Origin: Parietichytrium sp. I65-24A
Lineage: Eukaryota; Sar; Bigyra; Thraustochytrida; Thraustochytriidae
DNA length: 64,000 nucleotides
Direction of reading: 5' to 3'
Assembly: GCA_012862575.1 (NCBI GenBank)
Contig: BLSF01000078.1
Location: 1 to 64,000, forward strand
Position numbers and translations under genes: made by a program. Below, in pieces: positions 11,108-30,047 of the stretch. The notes under the pieces were generated by a model. It ran no database searches. It saw only the letters and a list, made by a program, of their open reading frames with translations, and was not told the origin of the DNA. Numbering within the stretch: the stretch's first letter is position 1; each line of letters begins with the position of its first letter.

Positions 11108-11161
11108 CTCTCACATCTCACATCTCACTTCTCACTTCTCACTTCTCACTTCTCACTTCTC
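11108..11161. repeat. CTCACATCT / CTCACTTCT repeat array
   Basis: Two to three copies of a TCTCACA-type unit grade into five copies of CTCACTT-type units, about 350 bases upstream of the histidine kinase start. Confidence 0.88.
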
Positions 11162-11230: not shown

Positions 11231-11330
11231 CTCTGCAACGCTCTGCAACGCTCTGCAACGCTCTGCAACGCTCTGCAACGCTCTGCAACGCTCTGCAAAG
11301 CTCTGCAAAGCTCTGCAAAGCTCTGCAAGG
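11231..11330. repeat. Ten-unit decamer array in the histidine kinase leader
   Basis: Ten decamers without interruption: six CTCTGCAACG, then three CTCTGCAAAG, then one CTCTGCAAGG. Variation is confined to the last three bases and changes in one direction. The array ends 186 bases before the first ATG of the histidine kinase and is followed by a GTGGTGGCT repeat at 11340-11363. Confidence 0.95.
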
Positions 11331-11515: not shown

Positions 11516-14500
11516 ATGATGCCGTACCACGGGACGGAGCTTCCGAAAGGCAACGCGAGGTATGATGCGAATTACACAAAATTTGAAGGCCCGGAAGAGG
11601 CGGCGAGCATGCGGAGCAGGAGGATTTGTAGGAGAAGGTGCTGCTATCGGCCACCATGGTTGACAAACTGGGAGCTCGGCGTGAGTCTCACGACGACGGT
11701 CATCGCGACCATAGCGATTGGTCTTGTGTTCTATTTCGAGAAGAAGGATCTTACCAACACCACCAACTCCGTATTCAACCAGCTGGCCCACTCGTACACC
11801 ACCATGGTGACGTATGCGGTTCTCACGGAATCACAAAACCTCAACACACTGGCCTCATTTGTCAAGCACTACGACTCAACCTACTACTGCGATGAGCCCT
11901 TTGTAGGATCGTTCCAGACTATCGCAGAGTCTCTGCGCAACCAAACCTCTGGCGTTGCAGCCTTTGGCGTCAGCCTCGTTCTCAATGGTGCAGAAGAGCA
12001 CCAAGAGTACTTGAACTATTCGAACAAGGCCTGGAATGAGCTCTTCGACACCGCCGACGTGTCTTACCCATTCATGGGTTTCGATGGCACCTCCGTTGTG
12101 GACAGGGGTGCCACGCTCTCCGGAACCTCAATTGTGGCCGCCCAGCGCGACCCAATCTTGTCTGTCAAGGGAAACGACAAGGTGGTCAACTTTGTCCAGA
12201 GCGATTTGAGTGGCATCTCGGAAACCTTCGCCTCAAGCATTCGATATGGTACACTTGCAGCAACTCGACGATTGGAAATCGGAGATAAATCTGGAGAGTT
12301 TGCAAGTATTATGTACGCTACTGCCTCACCCGTGCTTGGCGAACCTACACGCGCAGACCAAGGCGGAGATACGCCTGTGGCGACCTTTGCAACATTTGGG
12401 TTCAACGAACTTCTTTCCGGTGCTGTCTCAAATCTCGACGCAATTATGGAACACGATGGAAGTCAACCACTATTTGCTGACCTCAGCGGCCGTGCGCAAT
12501 ATGCAAGGCTCTATCTCGTAGAAGAGCTTGAAGAAGGCACGTTGCAATACCTCTCCGCATACGACGCGTCCCAGGGCAGAATAATCTCCGAGGAGGATGC
12601 TGACTTTATCAATTATGGTGATGAGGAGCTGAGAATGGAACTTGACGTTAGTGGTGGAAGAAACTGGAAGCTTGTGGTTATTAGCTTCCCTGAATTTGTG
12701 CAGGAGAAACTCTTCCTATCATACATCATTGGCTTTGTCATCTTCTTCATATACAGTAAAGGGACGGCATTTTATCTCTTCCGTCAGAGGTTAAAGTACT
12801 ATCAACAGGTCAACTACGACCGAATTAATCGCGAATCCCAAAACAGGCTCATGAGCTACATGTGCCATGAGCTGAGAAAGTAAGTTATTCTTGTGAGTTC
12901 TATGGCACCGCAAACACTCAAGATTGGCTCTAACAGCAGATTTGCTTTTCGTGCGTCTACACAAATCCCTCTTCTTCGAATCTTTTCATAGCCGTAAGTT
13001 TCCGCGTTAGTGTGTTTGGCTCTCAACTATGGCTCCACTAGCTTCGTTTGCTAACTTTTGAAACCCTGCTTTTTGACCTGACCACAGCACTGCATAGCTT
13101 ACAGTCGCTTGTTGGGGAGCTTCCCCGGACGGACGGCTCAGTCGCGGATATTCAGCAGATCGAAGCAATCTGCGCGCACATGAACTACTTGGTAAACGAC
13201 TTCCTGGATTATTCCAAGAGCCAGGTTACTGATTTGAAGCTCGTCCCGCTGCCAAGCAATGTCTCAGACTTGGCCCGAGACTGTGTCAACCAATATAGAA
13301 TATTCTCCCATGCCTCTGGTTTGACTTTGGAACTTGCGGTGGATCCTGACCTGGCCAACTTTGTAATCGAGGTGGACCCTCAACGCCTACGCCAAGTGCT
13401 TAGCAACGGACTCAGTAACGCCGTCAAGGTCTGTCAAGAGCGCGATGAGATCACGTTATCAGTTAGACGGGACAGAGTGCGCCGGCGTATCGTATTTGAG
13501 ATCTGTGATACCGGCCCAGGTCTCGGGAAAACCAATCCTGAGGACCTCTTTACCCCTTTTTGCCCCGGAAAGCAGAGCACAGTCCAGGGTAGCGGGTTAG
13601 GGCTTGGGATCTCGCGGGCTATCATGAATCTTATGGAGGGAGACTGCACAGTTTCCAACCGCACCGACGGCGTGCGTGGGGCACAATTTGTAGCATGGCT
13701 CCCATATCCCGACCCTTCACGGCAAGAGTCCCGCGGAGAGCGCCGCTTGACTGTTCGAGTGGATCCCCAAACATCCGCGAATGATTCAGAAGGATCCGTC
13801 TCACTCGAAACCGACTCCGGCCCGGCATCAGAGACATCCGCAGTCTCCAAGAGCACACCGGCCGCAGAGGAACAGCAGCGAGTCACCCCTTCTGCCTCCT
13901 TCGAAATGATTTCATTGAATTCGGACAAGATGAGTTCGTTGGAGTCTGACAAAAAGTCGTGCTCCATAGAGCTTCAGGATGATGAGGTCGCTGAGGAGAA
14001 AGATGTTCCGGCTCACTTGTCTGTCTGGCTGGATCCCACACTGAGTACGGAGCAAGCTGACACCATCAAGCGTGGATGTGAAGCCCTCGAATATTGCCGC
14101 ATCCGTGGTTCTCAAAATGAAGGGGCCGAACCTAGTCCGGACACCGCCGTGGTGGCGTTTGTCCAAGGTGAAAAGCTCAGTGTTGCACCGTTCGATCATT
14201 CCAACTTTTTCGTGGCGGTAACGGGCGACCTTTCCAAGGATAAGGACTTCTTCTACTCTGCCGGGTTTGACGGAGTTCTCTACGAAGGCCAAGACTTCGA
14301 ATCCGGAAAAGTCGAGAGTTTGATCAAGACATTCTGGGATCCTGCAGAGAAAAAGCCTGCTCGCTCCAAGAAATTAAAGATTATTGCCGCTGAAGACGAT
14401 GCAGTTGTTCACCGCATCCTCTCCAAAACTGTCGCCAAACTTTTCCATCCTCAATCCGTTGTGTACTTCGATGGCATCGATGTGATTGAGCATATCACTT

Positions 14501-14751
14501 CGGGTAAATTTGACCCCGATTGCATCTTACTGGACATTGTAATGAAATTTTCACGTGGGGACGAGGTTGTAGCGCGCCTGCGGCAAGAGTTCCAACTATC
14601 TACACCTGCGCTAGCTGTCACGGGCAACGCTATGGAGTCTGACACCTACAAGCAGATTGGATTTAATGATGTGGTCACAAAACCCTACGGCGCAAAGCAA
14701 TTGCAAAAGGCTGTTATTCAAGCCACCTGGGACCACTTTGCACGAAATTAA
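11516..14751 (+). CDS. CHASE-like transmembrane hybrid histidine kinase (three exons, one of 2 nt)
   Basis: Proposed splicing is 11516-12879, 12992-12993 and 13088-14751, giving 1009 residues. An Arg/Cys-rich cytoplasmic start is followed by TM1 (about 54-74), a roughly 320-residue outer domain resembling CHASE sensors, and TM2 (about 399-422). The H-box HELRNPLH has phospho-acceptor His451. The ATPase domain has an N-box (about 559-570), D-T-G-P-G-L (596) and G-S-G-L-G-L-G (624). A Ser/Thr-rich linker leads to a C-terminal receiver with the acidic E-D-D, Asp938 in L-L-D-I-V, a Thr in A-V-T-G-N and Lys in T-K-P-Y. The kinase should autophosphorylate His451 and pass phosphate to Asp938, then to a separate phosphotransfer protein. 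The first ATG in frame is at 11516; the frame upstream has none and runs towards the decamer repeat. ATG 11519 is equally possible. Confidence 0.88.
12880..12991 (+). other. Intron 1 of the histidine kinase gene
   Basis: 112 nt. Donor GTAAGTT, a CTAAC branch-site candidate, acceptor CATAG. It interrupts the Asn codon of HELRN in phase 2; retention would give an immediate TAA stop after HELRK. Confidence 0.85.
12992..12993 (+). other. Candidate 2-nt microexon (CC) in the histidine kinase H-box
   Basis: The two bases CC are flanked by an AG acceptor (12990-12991) and a GTAAGTT donor (12994). Joining AA + CC + CA recreates codons AAC CCA, giving H-E-L-R-N-P-L-H, the family consensus. Direct joining of 12879 to 13088 gives AAC ACT GCA TAG, a stop after three codons. 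No single acceptor between 12880 and 13088 keeps the downstream frame open. Confidence 0.8.
12994..13087 (+). other. Intron 2 of the histidine kinase gene
   Basis: 94 nt. Donor GTAAGTT, branch-site candidate GCTAAC at about 13050, acceptor CCACAG. It splits the Pro codon of the H-box (phase 1). Confidence 0.82.
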
Positions 14752-15111: not shown

Positions 15112-18100
15112 TTAGAGGCTCAAGGCTCGGTCCTCTTCGGGGGATGCGGCCTCGCCTTTCTCAAGTGGACTCTTTGGAATGGGCGCTGGCTTGACCCTAT
15201 TCGTAGGGCCAGTGAAAGCATCCGCGGCAATGGAGAAGCGGCTCCCGTCCTCAGTGAACTGCTTAAACTCCTTCCGCAATGTTGCCAAAGGCTTAGGGTC
15301 CTTCGAAGCCTCCTTGTCGAACTGCAGCTTGTGCAGAGCAGAAGTATATGGACGATACTCGCCACCTGGACCAGGGTTCTTGCGCACCCACATGACCAAA
15401 AAGTCTTCGAATCCGTCAGACGGTAGAAATGCAGACATGAGCAAACCCAGCAACTCGTACCCCTTGGCAGTCGACTCCTCGTTAGGGTTGTTCGTCACTT
15501 GCTTGACGACCTGCAGGAAGAGCTCATTTCGAAGAGATGGGTTGTCCCAACCAAACTTGACGTAGTCTTGCCCGGCCTTTTCGCGCTTCTTCTCGGCCAG
15601 CGGTTTGTCTCCCATAAACTTTTGAAGATTCAAAAACTGCTTTTTGCAGAGCGCCTTTTGCTTTTTCATTTCCTTGGTTTCTTCACGACCCTTCACTTCT
15701 CCTGGCATGAGAGTCACAGGCGATGGGATTGGCTTATCTGTCCAGTTGTACATTCCTTGCGCAATCGAAGACCTGCCGCAGAGCACAAGACCAGCTCCCT
15801 TTGCGTACTCGAGGGGCTCGCGAGCATGGCCAGAGCCCCACGTGTCCTGAAATTTGGACCCTTCTTTGTCGTAAAAGATCTCCTTCAGACGAATACGGCG
15901 GTGAATCTCGCGCGTTTTGTCTCCGAGCCTCTTGGCGGCCTCAAGCTCGAGCTTGACAAAATCTTCCTCCGGCATCTCAAACATGCGCTCGATCTCCTTG
16001 AGTGCTTCGTTAGTATGCTTGTACATGTTGGCCTCGTCCAAGCAAGTTTTCATCCGTGCACCATCCAGAACCTCCAATGAGTCCTGAGACTCTTGGTCAA
16101 TAAAGTCGAGACGCTCAAGGATGAAAGCAATCTTATCCACCGTTTCGGTCTGGTACCCAATGTCGTCCGACTTGTCTTTGACAGCTTGCATCCTGGCACG
16201 GTTGAGGGACTTGAGAGCCGGCCCGGCCTCTGCGTCCATCTGGCCAGGTGGCGAGTCCTGAATAAGCTCTTGGCAGAAGGCGTAGAGCTCGTCCTGCGCC
16301 GCAGTACGCTTCACATCCGAGAGCTCGGTATCAGCGCGCTTGCACATGTCAATGAGGTCCTTGTAGAGTTCAACCTGTACGTCTGGCGGTGTCATGCCCT
16401 CTGTACGACTCTCCATTTCGGCTTGAAGATCTTCCCAGGCCATGAGGCGGCTCTCCAAATGCTTTCCTTTGTTGTATAGATGCATTGGGTAGGCAGGAAG
16501 AAAGGCAAGGTTAGGCTCGAGCCACTCTTGGACTCCGTGGGCGAGCTCAAATCCCTCGCGTACCATGGAAATGTCGTTTGCCGTTTCAAGCGCATCGGAG
16601 AGCTTGTTTTGGGCGACACGAAGCTGGTTCATGTAGTGGCGCGCGATACTGCCGCGAATGAAAGCCTGGACGCTCGGTAGTCTGAGCTCTATTGCGATGT
16701 TTCGGAGCAAGACTAGAGGCTTGTGTACAGACACGCGGTAGAGGACCATGGATTCGCCGATACGGATGTCTTCCGCGAGCTCTTGCATGCGCGGGCTCAG
16801 ATTTAGAATCTCTGCGCAAACATTTCTCCAGTCGCCTTTCTCAACAAATTGCTTGGAGTACACGTGCTTAATGTTGATGCATCCAAATTGAAAGGCAAAC
16901 TGCTTGTGGGTAAGGCGAAATGGGAATCCAGTTTTGCGGATCTCGATCGTCTCGTACACGCCGCTGTTGTTCAGTTGGTCCACGATGAGACCAGCGTCAA
17001 AGTCCTTTGGACGCATGAGCGTATTTGGCTTGATGCAGCGAATGAATCGCGTCTCGGTCTTCTTGATGAGGTCCAAGAGATCATTCACGTTGACGCGGAA
17101 CTGTTGAGCAACTGGTTTGGTGTTGGAGATGTACTTGCCGACTGGGAACATTTGTTGCAAGAGCGGGTCCGTGGAGCTCGAGATCAGCGTGTACAGGCTT
17201 GCCCACATGGTGTCCTTGTTCTTGGCCACAAAATTAGTGGCGTTATAGCGAACGAGGCCAGCGTAGTGAGTGATCTGGAAGGTCAGAGTAGACTCGAACT
17301 TTTGCCTAAAGTCGGTTCCGAAGATAGAGTTGCTCTCGTGCTCCTTCTCGACTTTTCCAAGCCAGCCCTTGTCGCTGCCGCCTGGAAGTGCACCCTCGTC
17401 GTCGAGCATGATCAGCAAACCTTTTGGCTTCTTCTCAATAAGGTCGAGCACGGCTTGGTTGTCGCGTGGCTTGAGAAAGTGGTACTCAACGTTTTCACGC
17501 TTGTAGAAGGCCTCCTCAGAGTCAAACGTATGCTGATTGTGGAACTGCTGCAGCTTCTCGTTGCAAAAGTTGATGCAAAGCTGTTCAAACGAGTTTGTCT
17601 CGAGAATCTCAAAGCCAAAGATGTCCAGCAACCCGATAAAGTAGTCGGTTGCAGTGGTTGCCATGCTCGCGTTCAGTTGAGCCACGAGAGTCTCGAACAG
17701 CTTGCCATACACTGCTTTGCAAAGGGCGTCAACTCCGTCTTTTGCGCCAGCAGCGTCGAGTACAACAGTGGAAGTCTCTCCGCGCGCGGTCAGTGTGCGA
17801 GAAGTGATCATTTCTCTCAGAGACTCGATATCGACGGACCACATGTCAGCTACGTTAGCAAGTGCCTCTTCGTTGGTGACCTCGGACCCGGTAACGTTAG
17901 AAGCTTGGACCTGGTCTTTGAAGGTGATATTTCCCGCGTGCAGAATGCCTGCGATGATTTTGTAGATGGACTGCACCTCCTCTGCTTCAAACTCGAGATA
18001 CTCAAAAGCCTGTTGGACTTTGGCAAAGCCTGGCGCATCTTGACCGTCGCTTTTCAAGCTTGCTTTCGAATGGCGGAGGTAAGCGTAGTCCGACGGAGAG

Positions 18101-19161
18101 CCGAGGCCCAGCTGTTCCCGAATAGACTCATCTTGCAGGAGCATGTAGAAAATGTGGAAAGAGCGCTCCCCTTCTTGGTGTGACACGACGCGGGTTTTCT
18201 CCAGCATAAAGTTTTGAAACGTGGCGCCGGTAATTTTTCCAGACGACCGAGAAAAGGAAACCTTAATAAACTTGCCAAAGCGGGACGAGTTGTTGTTGCG
18301 AAGAGTGACGGCGTTTCCAAACGCTTCCAGCAGAGGATTTGAGAGAATGAGTTTATCGGCGACGTGGTGTTCCACGCTGTCGCTTCCGACCATTTCTGCA
18401 AAGAATTCGAGACAATATTTTGTGGCCTCCGTCTTGCCGGCGCCGGATTCTCCAGACACGAGAATCGCCTGGTCTTTGTCTCTGGCCTGGAGGGCATCGT
18501 ATGCCTCGTTGGCGACAGTGTACACGTGAGGTGGCACCCACTGGTCAGGTTTGTGCGGAATAGTTTTGTGCATGCGCATAGTCTCCTCGCTGTAGAGGTC
18601 CTCAAGCTTCTCGTAAGGGTTGATGGAGAGAAGTACGCTTCGGTTCGCCCCGATCCAAGTGTAAATCTTCCCGTCCAGGTAGCGCTTGCGGAGATTGTGC
18701 AAAATGGACGCCTCGTTGATGCCGTCCAACTTGATAATATCGTCCTCCTGCCAGTCCATGGCGGTCCAGCTCACATCCCACAGGGGCACCTTTTGGGTGC
18801 GGTTTCCGGTTTCCCGGCTGGGGCCAACGATGCCGTCCTTTGGCACGGTGAAGCTCGTTCCCTTGGCAGGCTGCACCACTGCACTCCCGTCCTTGTTGGA
18901 CTTTAGCAGCTTGGCCGGCTGCCAGAACTCGGTTGGGTGCGGGATCCACACCCACTGTCCGGCGCGCATCACCTTTTCGTTCGGGTCCATGAGCTCCTCG
19001 GGCTTTTGTATGGACACAATATCGTCGATGCCGGCCGTCCTGCTCGTGTTGAAGAAATACGGCCTGCCATCGTACACATTCCGCTTCACCCAGGACGGAG
19101 GCGCCTTCGCCTGGCCGCCGGTGCTCTTCTTCGAGGACACGCGAATGCTAAACAGCCCCAT
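15112..19161 (-). CDS. Unconventional myosin with WW-like and SH3-like N-terminus and MyTH4 tail
   Basis: A 1349-residue protein in one exon. An N-terminal WW-like segment (about 22-54: W, then D-G-R-P-Y-F-F-N-T, then a Pro, but without the second Trp) is followed by a myosin SH3-like subdomain (about 70-120). The motor (about 135-820) has P-loop GESGAGKT at 237-244, switch I N-N-S-S-R-F and switch II D-I-F-G-F-E from 513, so ATP hydrolysis and actin-driven movement are expected. One degenerate IQ motif, a long helical region and a MyTH4 domain (about 1150-1285) follow. MyTH4 domains bind microtubules or membrane cargo. There is no FERM domain; only about 65 residues remain after MyTH4. The ATG at 19161 is the first in frame; the frame before it has no ATG. 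Class assignment is not attempted. Confidence 0.9.
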   Translation of the reverse strand: MGLFSIRVSSKKSTGGQAKAPPSWVKRNVYDGRPYFFNTSRTAGIDDIVSIQKPEELMDPNEKVMRAGQWVWIPHPTEFWQPAKLLKSNKDGSAVVQPAKGTSFTVPKDGIVGPSRETGNRTQKVPLWDVSWTAMDWQEDDIIKLDGINEASILHNLRKRYLDGKIYTWIGANRSVLLSINPYEKLEDLYSEETMRMHKTIPHKPDQWVPPHVYTVANEAYDALQARDKDQAILVSGESGAGKTEATKYCLEFFAEMVGSDSVEHHVADKLILSNPLLEAFGNAVTLRNNNSSRFGKFIKVSFSRSSGKITGATFQNFMLEKTRVVSHQEGERSFHIFYMLLQDESIREQLGLGSPSDYAYLRHSKASLKSDGQDAPGFAKVQQAFEYLEFEAEEVQSIYKIIAGILHAGNITFKDQVQASNVTGSEVTNEEALANVADMWSVDIESLREMITSRTLTARGETSTVVLDAAGAKDGVDALCKAVYGKLFETLVAQLNASMATTATDYFIGLLDIFGFEILETNSFEQLCINFCNEKLQQFHNQHTFDSEEAFYKRENVEYHFLKPRDNQAVLDLIEKKPKGLLIMLDDEGALPGGSDKGWLGKVEKEHESNSIFGTDFRQKFESTLTFQITHYAGLVRYNATNFVAKNKDTMWASLYTLISSSTDPLLQQMFPVGKYISNTKPVAQQFRVNVNDLLDLIKKTETRFIRCIKPNTLMRPKDFDAGLIVDQLNNSGVYETIEIRKTGFPFRLTHKQFAFQFGCINIKHVYSKQFVEKGDWRNVCAEILNLSPRMQELAEDIRIGESMVLYRVSVHKPLVLLRNIAIELRLPSVQAFIRGSIARHYMNQLRVAQNKLSDALETANDISMVREGFELAHGVQEWLEPNLAFLPAYPMHLYNKGKHLESRLMAWEDLQAEMESRTEGMTPPDVQVELYKDLIDMCKRADTELSDVKRTAAQDELYAFCQELIQDSPPGQMDAEAGPALKSLNRARMQAVKDKSDDIGYQTETVDKIAFILERLDFIDQESQDSLEVLDGARMKTCLDEANMYKHTNEALKEIERMFEMPEEDFVKLELEAAKRLGDKTREIHRRIRLKEIFYDKEGSKFQDTWGSGHAREPLEYAKGAGLVLCGRSSIAQGMYNWTDKPIPSPVTLMPGEVKGREETKEMKKQKALCKKQFLNLQKFMGDKPLAEKKREKAGQDYVKFGWDNPSLRNELFLQVVKQVTNNPNEESTAKGYELLGLLMSAFLPSDGFEDFLVMWVRKNPGPGGEYRPYTSALHKLQFDKEASKDPKPLATLRKEFKQFTEDGSRFSIAADAFTGPTNRVKPAPIPKSPLEKGEAASPEEDRALSL

Positions 19162-19190
19162 TCCTCTCTCCGCCGCAGACTGACCCAAAC

Positions 19191-19213
19191 ACTCACTCAC
19201 TCACTCACTCACT
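19191..19213. repeat. ACTC tetranucleotide repeat in the myosin leader
   Basis: About five to six ACTC units starting 30 bases upstream of the myosin ATG. Confidence 0.9.
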
Positions 19214-24901: not shown

Positions 24902-26267
24902 TTTTTCCGAAGTTTAATCTTCCTTCAATAATATATTTTTCAAGCAAAAAATTCTTCTCCATTTCGGACTAGGCCATCTGGTGGGCAGTGTGATTAAAAG
25001 CCAAGTCCACATGATGCCTTGCTGGATCCGGGTTCTCTCCAAAGATGACGAGTTTCTTCAAATTGTTGTTGTTGAGTGTGATCTCGTCCGCCTTGGCCAC
25101 CTTGCAGTATCGTGTTCACTGTCAGCAACAGAACAAGATGGAAAATATAAAGAGAAATAGAATCCCAGTGAGTTCAATCGGCTACTTTGATGGCAAAAGC
25201 TTCGGATAGATTATATGAATTAACAATGAACTTCACTTTGGAAATAAACGTCTCGGGTTTCACGCGAAAGAAGGCGAAGGAACCGACTCGCGGATACCGC
25301 CACCGTGACGCGAAAAACAAGTTCATTTTCCTCCATACTCGGCATGTTCACAGTCATTGTACTGAACTCCGTGACCTTCAAGCAAGTTCAAAAATTAAAT
25401 TTTAAAATTTTAAAAAATTTTAAAAAAAGGTTTTACCGATACCAAATTTTCTCTCAGGCTTGCGTGCTGAGCGAGAGTGCGTGCACGGATGTGCACGCTC
25501 GTGCTGAACTACCGTTCACGAGTAACCCTCCTTAGTGCACCCTCAGAGAGTCTCGTGCCGAACCTCCATACGGTTTCCGCTAACCGCTCGGTAACCCCAT
25601 ACGCACAAGCCTCCGGAGAACCGGGACCAGTTCAGGCTCACGCCAGTGGGAGCGAACGATTACCACAATCTCTACCCACATCAGTAACGGTGTGGGCTCA
25701 TGCCGGTTCTCCGTTTCTTGCTAACAGTCGCCTACAGCACGCACTAGTCCCACGTTCACAAAGTATCACAAAGTGCTCGCTCGCCCGAGTCCGGTAACAG
25801 GCTGCCCCCATGTCCTTAGTACCAGTTGCTAACCGTGTCGGTAACCGCCGGGAGGAGGTCAGGGAGGTGAGGAAACAGAGGAAACAGAGGACACATTGGA
25901 AACATAGGAAACTGAGACAAAAGTGAGAGCCAGCGAGAAGCCAGCGAGCCAGCAAAAGGCGAAAAAGTGCGAGGGGCAGCGCGGAAAAGAGCGACGTGGG
26001 CTGTGGTTGTAGGGGAACATCTAGGCGAGTGCGCGGACGAGTGTTAGTTGGGACTTTGGGGCAAGGAGTTGCAGGGTTGGTTTGCACGAAACTAGCTGGA
26101 TAGATTTTGGACGAGTCGGAGTTGGTGGCCTGTGCTGCGTCTCTGTGTCTCTGTGGCTCTTTGGATCTGTGGATCTGCGGATCGTAAAGTCAGGAAGGTT
26201 TGATTTCGCAGCAAGGGGCGATTGAGTTCTTGGGTGGAAGGTTTGGGCTGCGAGTGAAAGTGGCGAA
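24902..26267. other. Intergenic region upstream of the IQ-rich myosin
   Basis: About 1.4 kb with no convincing gene. It contains an extended AT palindrome-like run of AATTTTAAAATTTT type at about 25390-25430, several GGTAAC words between 25580 and 25840, GAGGAAACA repeats at 25869-25890 and a CTGTGT/GGATCTG-type repeat at about 26130-26185 close to the start. Confidence 0.6.
25869..25890. repeat. GAGGAAACA 9-mer x2
   Basis: Two tandem copies and a partial third, about 380 bases upstream of the myosin ATG at 26268. Confidence 0.75.
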
Positions 26268-29200
26268 ATGTCGGACCTGGCAGCGCTACCAGAGGTGACG
26301 GAGAAGTCGATTGTGAGCGCGCTGCAAACGAGGTTCGGGAACAATAGGATCTACACTGCCCTGGGAAGCAATGTCATCGTCAAGGTGAACCCATTTCAGA
26401 AGCTGGAGCTTGCGAAGAGCGCCAAGAATGGCAAAAGTGAAGGATTTGGGGAGCCAGATATACAGAATTTGGCGAAACAGGCTCGAAACCGGGCCATTGC
26501 GTCCGGAAGGCCCCAATCATGCATGATGACCGGGGAAAGCGGGGCCGGCAAAACGGAGGCCACAAAGAGGTATCTCAGCAAGCTCGCGGACAGCAAGCAT
26601 TGCGCGGACAAATCTTTGCACGTCCAGTTGGCGGACAGCTGTACCTTGCTTGAGTCTTTCGGAAATGCTTCCACAGAACATAATAAGAACTCGAGTCGTT
26701 TTGCGAGATGGTTCCAGATTCGAGTCAGCAGACGTGCCGGCAAAGTGGTGGGGGGCAATGTGCATCAGTATCTCCTCGAGAAGGCACGAGTGGTGAAAGG
26801 GTCCTCTACCTCGTCAAATTTCCATGTGCTGTATGATATTTGTTCCAACGCGGATGAAGACAGCGTGGATGCTACGGCAGTGGAGCAGCCCAAGGAAAAT
26901 TTTGCGTACCTCCGCGGCCGCCCTGGTGAAGGCAGCTCTGATCGCCTGTTCAGAATGCAATGCCAGCTCCAGCGCCTTGGCGTCAGAGATGAGGTCATCG
27001 ACGGGGTTGAAGCGCTTCTGTGGTGCATTCTTCACATGGGCAACATAGACTTTATCTCAAAAGACAGAGATGCTGGCTTCGGGTGCCTGCTAGACGAGAG
27101 CACGGCAAACTCCGCAAAAATAGCTGCCAATCTTCTCGGACTCCAGTCATCCGACGATTTGGTCGAACTTTTTGCCTTTAAGAGGTTGCGCACCGGGAGG
27201 GATGTTGTTCGTAAAGAGCTAAGTGTAGAGCAAGCTAGAGACGCGCGAGACGCTTTGGCAAAAGACCTCTACAGCCGCCTCTTTCAGTGGGTCGTGGCAA
27301 CCATCAATGCGTCCATCGACAGTACGACAACCTCAGACACTGAACAAATCGTCAAGGAGGATCCGGACCATGTTGTCGTTGGGCTCCTTGACGTGTTCGG
27401 ATTTGAATGCTTTGAAAATAACTCATTTGAGCAACTTTGTATCAACTATTGCAACGAAAAACTCGTTCAGCAGTTTCACAAAGTGCTCGTGGATGCAGAG
27501 GTCCACGTCTGCACACAGGAGGGCGTCCCCGCAAATCTCATTGGACTAGAAAATGAATACGAAAACGAGGTGAAACGTAAGCAATTCGTGATTGGCGGGA
27601 TTGACCAAATCTTCTCTACAATCCAAGATGAGGTTCGGGTCCCAAAGTCTACCGACAAGTCCTTGACAGTCAAACTGCTCAAGCTCGAACTTGGCGAGAA
27701 AACGAAGGAGACACGTATGGCGGGCGCGGAGGTGTTCACTATTAATCACTATGCTGGACTAGTTACATACAATGTTAGCGGGTTCTTGGAGAAGAACAAG
27801 GATGAGGGGCCTTCAGACATTACAGAAGTGCTCATACACAGCGCCAGCAACCAGTTCGTAAAGTCGTTGTACGACTCGGAAGAGACCAGCACTCCGCCCT
27901 CTCGGTCCCCGTCCAAGAAAAAGACGCTGGGCATCCAATTTCGCGACGAGTTCTCCTCCTTGGCGTCACTGCTTGCTGCGAGCGATCAGCAGTTTGTCAT
28001 GTGCGTGAAGCCCAATCGCCAATCCACTCCGAGCTTGTTCGACGAGCAGACTGTTGAGCGCCAACTGGAGTGCAATGGTCTCTTAGCAGTGTGCCGAGTC
28101 CGCAAAGTCGCGTTCGCCTCCCATCTCCCATTCGAAGATTTTGTGGAAAGATACTCCATTCTTGCGCCACAAGTTGTCGTTCGCGGAAATGCCGCAAAGC
28201 AATCAGCGCAAAGTCTGGTAAACGAGTTTTTGGATGCAATGTACATGGAGGAGTCGGACGTGTACATAGGCAGATCCCGCGTCCTTTTGCGCCAGGAGGC
28301 CGTCACTTTTCTTAGTGTGCAGATGCGCGTTTACAACAAGAAGGCTGTGATCATTCAGTCCAAGTACCGTCAATTTGCAGCACGAAAGCACTTCGTGCGC
28401 TCCAGAGCTGCAGCGATTCTGCTGCAGGCTCGCGCGCGAGGAATTGCCTCTCGCAAGGCAGTTCAACACAAGCGCGTCGAACACACTAGTGCTCTCCGAA
28501 TTCAAGTGGTGGTTCGAGGACATCTTGCGCGTCGGAAGAGAGCAGCTCTGGCACATCGCCAGCAAGTTATTCAGAGCTGTGTGCTGGTACAAAGTGTAAT
28601 CAGGATGTACATTGCGAAGAGAATCCTCATTCGCTTGAAATTGGAGGCAGAACAAAGGGAGATAGAACGGGTTGCACAAGAGCAGGAGACGGCCCGTCTT
28701 GCTGCACTGGCCGAAGCAGAGGAACTGAGGAGGCAAGAGCTTGAGGAGCGAAAGCGCCGGGAAGCAGAAGAAACGGCCGCGAGAGTAAAACTCGAAAAGC
28801 AAAGACAACTCGAAGCTGATTTAGAGGAGGCCGAACGGCTTGAGGAGGAGCGGCTTAGAGTGCGCCGCGAACGAGAGGCTGCTGCCGCCGCATCTCTCGC
28901 AGCTATGCAAGCAAGATCAGCAGCACCCTCCTCATCGGCTGGTTCCGAATCTGTACCGTCCAAGGATCCGGCGTTGGACGATTTAAACAACAAAATCATG
29001 GCCCGCCCTACGATTCCACACAACAGGCGTCGCCCGTCAAAGACGACCGCAGCAGTGGCTTTAGGCTCGGCTGCTCTGGCAAGCTCCGCCATTGCTGCGA
29101 CAGCGGCCATGCCTGCATCATCTAATTCTCCGCCTGCGCTAAAGGTGCCAGCGCCGACCACCAAGCAGCTTGTTTCTGACTCTCCGGAGGAGTTAAAAAA

Positions 29201-30047
29201 TTTTGGAGAGCAGTTCGAGAATCCTGCCGAAGGTTCGGGGTCACCGGCCTCGATGAGCTCCAGTTTATCGAGGTCGTATTCGATCCCCACGGTGGAAGAT
29301 GTGGAATCCTATGTGGAGACTCCGTCTAGTGACCTCTCCAGCCCGACTGGATCCGCCTTTGGGGAGTCTTATGACGAGCCCAAACCAGCTCCTAATCAGA
29401 TTGACGATAGCGCCTCCCGTGCCTCTTCAAGCGAGGAGAGTGAGAGACCGGAAGTCGATGACAGCTTTGACGAACCTATCGTTGGGCTCGAACTCTCTGC
29501 TCGTTCTCCGGAGACTTCCAACCTCCTGGACTCTGCTGCAATCGCGATCCAGTCCGGGTTCCGTGGCTGGCTTCGGCGCCAGCGCTACCAGATGATCAGG
29601 CGCAAATGGAAGCGCATCCTTCTTGCTCGCGCCTTCCAGCAAGATCGCGAGGAGGACAGACAGCAGATGCAGAAGCAAGTATTCGCCCGCAACAGCAAAG
29701 AGTTCCAAGACCGTTTTGGGAAAACGGAAGAGGCCTACTATGAAGAAGTGGCCAGAAAATCTCCCGAGTATCGTTTCCTCGTGATAGATAAAGTAGTGGA
29801 CCCTCGAAAGTCATATAGAGCAATGGAGCAGCAAGCTGGGGCTGTTCGTAAACAACTACTCGCTGCACTCGATCGCCGCGATTTTAAGAGTCTCTCAAAT
29901 GCCATTCGCGCAGCGTACGACGTGCAGTTCAGTGGACCAGAGCTTTACACTGCGGAGACCGTGTTGGCTCACATTCGCAAGATCCACATCAAGCAAATGG
30001 AGGCCGAGCGAAAACTCGCAGAGAGATTCGGATACGTAGTTATGTAA
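26268..30047 (+). CDS. Unconventional myosin with IQ array, charged helix and distal IQ tail
   Basis: A 1259-residue single-exon myosin. It begins almost directly with the motor and has no SH3-like subdomain. The P-loop GESGAGKT is at 89-96, switch I N-K-N-S-S-R-F-A at about 139-146 and switch II D-V-F-G-F-E from about 375; the relay block N-N-S-F-E-Q-L-C-I-N-Y-C-N-E-K-L is intact, so it should be an active actin motor. About four IQ motifs (688-790) for calmodulin-like light chains lead into a Glu/Arg-rich helix (about 790-880) that may be a stable single alpha-helix or a coiled coil. A low-complexity Ala/Ser/Pro region follows. Near residues 1090-1122 there is another IQ motif, then a conserved-looking 130-residue helical end of unknown fold. 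Cargo and class are unknown. Confidence 0.9.
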   Translation: MSDLAALPEVTEKSIVSALQTRFGNNRIYTALGSNVIVKVNPFQKLELAKSAKNGKSEGFGEPDIQNLAKQARNRAIASGRPQSCMMTGESGAGKTEATKRYLSKLADSKHCADKSLHVQLADSCTLLESFGNASTEHNKNSSRFARWFQIRVSRRAGKVVGGNVHQYLLEKARVVKGSSTSSNFHVLYDICSNADEDSVDATAVEQPKENFAYLRGRPGEGSSDRLFRMQCQLQRLGVRDEVIDGVEALLWCILHMGNIDFISKDRDAGFGCLLDESTANSAKIAANLLGLQSSDDLVELFAFKRLRTGRDVVRKELSVEQARDARDALAKDLYSRLFQWVVATINASIDSTTTSDTEQIVKEDPDHVVVGLLDVFGFECFENNSFEQLCINYCNEKLVQQFHKVLVDAEVHVCTQEGVPANLIGLENEYENEVKRKQFVIGGIDQIFSTIQDEVRVPKSTDKSLTVKLLKLELGEKTKETRMAGAEVFTINHYAGLVTYNVSGFLEKNKDEGPSDITEVLIHSASNQFVKSLYDSEETSTPPSRSPSKKKTLGIQFRDEFSSLASLLAASDQQFVMCVKPNRQSTPSLFDEQTVERQLECNGLLAVCRVRKVAFASHLPFEDFVERYSILAPQVVVRGNAAKQSAQSLVNEFLDAMYMEESDVYIGRSRVLLRQEAVTFLSVQMRVYNKKAVIIQSKYRQFAARKHFVRSRAAAILLQARARGIASRKAVQHKRVEHTSALRIQVVVRGHLARRKRAALAHRQQVIQSCVLVQSVIRMYIAKRILIRLKLEAEQREIERVAQEQETARLAALAEAEELRRQELEERKRREAEETAARVKLEKQRQLEADLEEAERLEEERLRVRREREAAAAASLAAMQARSAAPSSSAGSESVPSKDPALDDLNNKIMARPTIPHNRRRPSKTTAAVALGSAALASSAIAATAAMPASSNSPPALKVPAPTTKQLVSDSPEELKNFGEQFENPAEGSGSPASMSSSLSRSYSIPTVEDVESYVETPSSDLSSPTGSAFGESYDEPKPAPNQIDDSASRASSSEESERPEVDDSFDEPIVGLELSARSPETSNLLDSAAIAIQSGFRGWLRRQRYQMIRRKWKRILLARAFQQDREEDRQQMQKQVFARNSKEFQDRFGKTEEAYYEEVARKSPEYRFLVIDKVVDPRKSYRAMEQQAGAVRKQLLAALDRRDFKSLSNAIRAAYDVQFSGPELYTAETVLAHIRKIHIKQMEAERKLAERFGYVVM

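Follow-up and report, generated by a model that had tools for sequence, protein, structure and literature searches.

A predicted two-nucleotide exon in the H-box of three paralogous hybrid histidine kinase genes of Parietichytrium sp. I65-24A

A gene for a predicted membrane-anchored hybrid histidine kinase of Parietichytrium sp. I65-24A appears to contain an exon of two nucleotides, placed between two short GT-AG introns within the H-box. From the gene sequences we infer that the RNA is spliced with this exon, probably constitutively, and that sequential removal of the two introns is most likely, a reading to which we give a probability of about 94%. The gene lies in the window, the whole stretch of 64 kb analysed here (C78:1-64000), and its parts are given in Table 1. 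In the genome searched (42.5 Mb in 172 contigs), the same anatomy is present in two paralogs, on contigs C102 and C43, and in each of the three genes the model with the two-nucleotide exon outranks all others enumerated. The exon is very probably real because two distant sister genes have the same tiny exon in the same place.

Table 1. Parts of the histidine kinase gene in the window (positions are those of the window).
Feature	Position	Strand	Description
Exon 1	11519..12879	+	Open frame with putative start codon; sensor region with hydrophobic stretches
Intron 1	12880..12991	+	112 nt, GTAAGTT...CATAG; CTAAC branch-like motif, A at 12933
Two-nucleotide exon CC	12992..12993	+	Last base of the Asn codon AAC and first base of the Pro codon CCA
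Intron 2	12994..13087	+	94 nt, GTAAGTTTCCGC...CACAG; CTAAC branch-like motif, A at 13054
Exon 3 with stop	13088..14751	+	Rest of HisKA domain, HATPase_c and receiver domain (Pfam)
Rival acceptor CATAG inside His-Ser codons	13093..13097	+	In frame, but PLHS deleted

Exon 1 ends with MCHELR plus AA (...CATGAGCTGAGAAA at 12879) and is followed by GTAAGTT at 12880; the His of HELR is presumably the phospho-acceptor. An earlier note on this DNA had described a kinase frame that ends in HELRK and a stop and resumes off phase 200 nt later. The frames of exon 1 and exon 3 are indeed out of phase with each other, and the gap between them measures 208 nt. The note's acceptor and second GTAAGTT donor around CC were found as CATAG/CC/GTAAGTT at 12987-13000. 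When CC is kept, the H-box reads MCHELRNPLHSLQSL (HELRNPLHS) in a frame of 1008 amino acids counted from the putative ATG, and with the splice sites in place, the H-box restored and the model ranked first in three genes, the note's central proposal of a two-nucleotide exon rebuilding the H-box is upheld.

By domain content the predicted product is a hybrid histidine kinase, with HisKA including the H-box, HATPase_c and a receiver domain in one predicted protein. The exon 3 frame matches the Pfam families HATPase_c (E = 1.3e-19) and Response_reg (E = 1.3e-10, 41.9 bits), and the joined protein scores 37.8 bits against HisKA (E = 2e-9; cut-off 26.9) and 71.1 bits against HATPase_c. The sensor region (11519-12879) has no match to a Pfam family at E ≤ 0.001, and a profile search of PDB with a limit of E = 10 was negative too; the region is common to the C78, C102 and C43 kinases at 34-37% identity. 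Just upstream of the putative kinase start, positions 11231-11328 hold a tandem array in which a 10-nt unit (CTCTGCAACG) is repeated 9.8 times, and a 7-nt array of TCTCACT (7.6 copies) occupies 11109-11161.

Gene models were required to be in frame and free of stops, and contained either a single intron or two introns around an inner exon of 1-150 nt, using GT or GC donors, AG acceptors and introns of at least 45 nt. Scoring used a profile built from 40 bacterial H-box segments, whose loci had been found by exon 3 alone. The two-nucleotide model ranked first of 813 in C78 (54.0 bits; best one-intron model 40.3), first of 1459 in C102 (56.5; 41.1) and first of 451 in C43 (61.8; 51.7). All 40 bacterial relatives have Pro at the site encoded with the microexon (one alignment is gapped after this Pro); the residue before it is Thr in 18 of them, Asn in 15 and Ser in 7. 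For every one of the 40, tblastn scored higher when the microexon was present. Within the same genome, Thr-Pro or Asn-Pro occurs in all eight kinases with an uninterrupted H-box (C66, C1, C39, C18, C122, C19, C8 and C16). Flanked by an AG acceptor and a GT donor and needed for both frame and product, the two bases have the features of an ultrashort spliceosomal microexon.

The earlier note had also held that no single intron keeps the frame, which proved incorrect. Scanning the region for in-frame, stop-free single introns gave 51 solutions (12 with GT donors, 11 with GC donors and 28 with AT-AC ends), and the narrower scan for the gene-model set gave 10. The donor at 12880 has one in-frame partner, the acceptor ending at 13097 inside the His-Ser codons. 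A single 218-nt intron between these two sites, with a kinase lacking PLHS and the CC between AG and GT left as a coincidence, would keep both the frame and the donor, and an equivalent CAYAG is present in both C102 and C43. This correspondence follows from the His-Ser codons, which are CAY-AGY there too, and may be due to chance because AGY makes up one third of the serine codons in these genes. The 218-nt intron is nevertheless very improbable: it would remove four H-box residues, so that the H-box piece scores 21.5 bits against HisKA, below the cut-off of 26.9, compared with 41.0 bits with the microexon. Its model score is 40.3 against 54.0 (41.1 against 56.5 for the C102 counterpart), it would have to pass over CACAG ten bases upstream, and it leaves the AG-2nt-GTAAGTT arrangement in three genes unexplained.

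Searching the genome with the joined protein returned 14 matched stretches, of which two were the gene itself, three each belonged to C102 and C43, and six to more distant kinases. The C102 and C43 kinases are 34-58% identical to the C78 kinase per stretch, and both matches break at the same H-box codon. In C102, AAA/GTAAGTT opens a 163-nt intron, followed in order by exon TC, GTAAGTTTCTGC, an 89-nt intron and CCTTGCACAGC; in C43, AAA/GTACGTT opens a 90-nt intron, followed in order by exon CC, GTAAGTTGCTGC, a 77-nt intron and CCTTACATAGT. The joined codons read HELRNPLHS in both. All three members found of the close paralog group thus carry a two-nucleotide exon at the same codon position, each with GTAAGTT directly downstream, a conservation known among paralogs of one genome only. 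The introns of the three genes can hardly be aligned, and MAFFT places the C102 microexon out of register with the others.

An error of sequencing or assembly, or decay of the gene, would be conceivable in that the joined frame is read from assembled sequence. Three separate loci with diverged introns show the same arrangement, however, and the remaining frames are long and open; we regard this explanation as extremely improbable, and misassembly, which the earlier note had named as a possible refutation, is hard to hold because the arrangement recurs at all three loci. A kinase gap on C87 that had been considered as an intron was ruled out by eye, the stretch being open and in frame. Among viral contigs, 300 stretches fit a pattern for relatives and none was confirmed.

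The motif AGNNGTAAGTT occurs once in the 64-kb window with both strands counted, at the two-nucleotide exon; at least one occurrence was present in 18 of 100 window shuffles (mean 0.18), and a lone occurrence in 64 kb is not remarkable. Within the gaps themselves, 20,000 dinucleotide shuffles of each gave p = 0.0005 for C78 (208-nt gap), 0.0006 for C102 and 0.00035 for C43, where the exon length of 2 had been fixed after seeing C78 and the C102 and C43 tests are free of that choice. The corresponding values for AGNNGTRAGT were 0.0029, 0.0041 and 0.0029. Across both strands of the 42.5 Mb, AGYCGTAAGTT occurs 39 times (reversed control pattern, 58), three of which are the paralog H-box introns. 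Six genome occurrences of AGNNGTAAGTTKCYGC (control, one) include all three paralogs, from which the pattern was derived, and therefore only its rarity elsewhere is informative; at the other three sites (C31, C48 and C50) no convincing frames on both sides were seen by eye. A codon-score scan of 30 AGYCGTAAGTT loci did not rank the true model best for known genes and was not used.

Intron definition would take out the two introns in turn. Given the footprints of U1 and of the 3' splice-site factors, the donor and the AG that precedes it by two bases could hardly be occupied at the same time. Once the first intron is out, the two bases would lie within an exon of normal size, and the two-nucleotide exon would not have to be recognised alone. 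Sequential intron definition of this kind would account for the facts without special apparatus. Inclusion of the two bases would restore the reading frame together with the H-box Asn-Pro, and skipping them, or keeping either intron, would end or shift the frame in or after the H-box. With the exon skipped, a stop follows HELRNTA in C78, HELRNLT in C43 and a further 42 residues after HELRN in C102; with intron 1 retained, C78 and C102 reach the stop directly behind HELRK, and C43 reads on for another 25 residues.

Five of the six kinase donors are GTAAGTT and one is GTACGTT. Each of the six introns contains a CTRAY branch-like motif, which speaks for the two-intron model. Counting against it, the acceptor regions are uneven. 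In the first intron of each gene the motif is 44-76 nt away from the acceptor. The acceptor tract before the end of intron 2 contains only 35-45% pyrimidines in C43 and C102, and in intron 1 of C78 two AGs directly follow the branch-like motif (12935-12939). Despite near-uniform GTAAGTT donors, no Rfam match for U1 snRNA was obtained in the genome (41 of 783 candidates scored), which says little because the control set had no eukaryote.

Adjacent introns that touch through AG-2nt-GT look like a stwintron (nested intron) or a recursive site without retained bases, for which all of 12880-13087 would be removed. We rejected this candidate, whose probability is minimal: it leaves no bases behind, and removal of the two bases breaks the frame in 3/3 genes: C78 and C43 would read HELRNTA-stop and HELRNLT-stop, respectively, and C102 would be frameshifted. 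The recursive sites and stwintrons described in the available text of earlier reports (PMC6110457, PMC9024468, PMC12403724) resemble the kinase introns in being removed in consecutive steps, but here two bases would stay in the mRNA and the external splice signals are uninterrupted.

Alternative splicing of the exon is unlikely, if less so than the other rival readings. Inclusion would then yield the active kinase, and retained or skipped forms would yield regulatory truncated sensors or an in-frame form without PLHS. Both retention of intron 1 and exon skipping would truncate the protein in or after the H-box, and the coding frames of the three genes require only these two introns each. Truncated forms are expected of almost any intron, however, and no sign of regulation was seen.

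The kinase exon adds to the known ultrashort exons and is notable for its retention in three paralogs of an intron-poor genome. The earlier note had placed two nucleotides near the lower limit of exon size; the size is not the lowest known, as exons of 1 nt have been published (PMC4674806, PMC8831610, PMC12940212). According to the available text of these reports, the authors propose sequential intron removal for the 1-nt exon of Arabidopsis APC11, which is constitutive and, like the kinase exon, too short for exon definition and essential for the frame (PMC4674806). The 1-nt exons of plant APC11 and VPS55, supported by RNA-seq and RT-PCR, are likewise conserved ultrashort exons that annotation missed, and the VPS55 donors are GTRAGT (PMC8831610). 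A 1-nt exon of Fusarium CYP621A, with transcript support in fungal orthologs, resembles our case in the reconstruction of frame and motif, in the conserved motif and in the many related genes (PMC12940212). Whereas the APC11 exon was proved experimentally and the other plant and fungal exons have transcript support, the kinase exon is 2 nt long and is deduced from sequence in three paralogs of one genome. No first is claimed for its size because the available text of PMC12940212 cites a 2003 study of exons of 2-5 bp; among the matches listed, no title or beginning of an abstract in the literature mentioned a two-nucleotide exon in a histidine kinase.

A two-nucleotide exon is hardly recognisable by exon definition, and the three natural paralogs with their different introns therefore offer a ready test of tiny-exon splicing and of the order of intron removal. 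Automatic annotation would split these kinases at the H-box, as a HisKA search of the genome gave six places with none of the three microexon kinases among them.

Many other genes of this genome, whose myosin, kinesin and CCT genes mark it as eukaryotic, are unbroken, and ribosomal protein L3 is encoded in one frame. Stops were present in 5 of the 138 rows for protein kinases and in 3 of the 71 for kinesins; frame-breaking introns appear as partial rows, and these counts therefore understate introns. Four ordinary introns were resolved in TCP1 genes (C4, C16 twice and C23; 71-105 nt, all with GTAAGTT donors), a set that leaves out C25, C55 and a second break in C23. The best model for the C25 break has a GC donor and lies only 0.2 bits above models with GTACGTT. 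By eye, four proteasome introns also begin with GTAAGTT, and the kinase donors are thus ordinary for the genome.

Another TCP1 gene, whose joined protein is CCT-epsilon, has a 217-nt break (C68:43407-43623) and likely contains a 3-nt exon unrelated to the kinases. The best of 86 models places TGT at C68:43534-43536 (ACGCAG/TGT/GTAAGTCT), flanked by a first intron of 127 nt and a second of 87 nt. It scores 132.5 bits, with the next models at 132.0 and 131.7 and the best one-intron model at 127.9, and AGTGYGTRAGT in shuffles of this gap gave p = 0.0003. The five alignments shown with solved structures are gapless through ICQWGF, with Cys at the exon site. Since skipping this exon would leave the frame intact at the cost of the Cys alone, and since the models score so closely, the argument depends on the Cys and on how well the splice sites match; it is weaker than that for the kinases. 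In two kinesin genes, at C77:77280-77800 and C15:505400-506000, exons of 29 and 59 nt, respectively, seem by eye to lie between short introns. Tentatively, the 2-nt exon of three kinases, the 3-nt exon of CCT-epsilon and the 29- and 59-nt kinesin exons might reflect recurrent, long-kept ultrashort exons in an intron-poor lineage with strictly sequential intron definition, and the paired kinase introns may conceivably persist because splicing gates the catalytic half of the sensor.

The frames of two TIM loci contained no TPI-GAPDH fusion; at L093, a loose motif match lies upstream in another frame. No tandem ACP array was found among the 11 PF00550 rows of the genome. Single frames of 4460 and 5583 codons on C7 and C66 encode several carrier-protein domains 3-5 kb apart, a spacing that we take to be that of modular synthases. 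Elsewhere in the window, a myosin heavy chain gene occupies a single frame of 1273 codons (26226-30044), and a frame of 1362 codons on the opposite strand (15115-19200) is, by visible motif, presumably another myosin.
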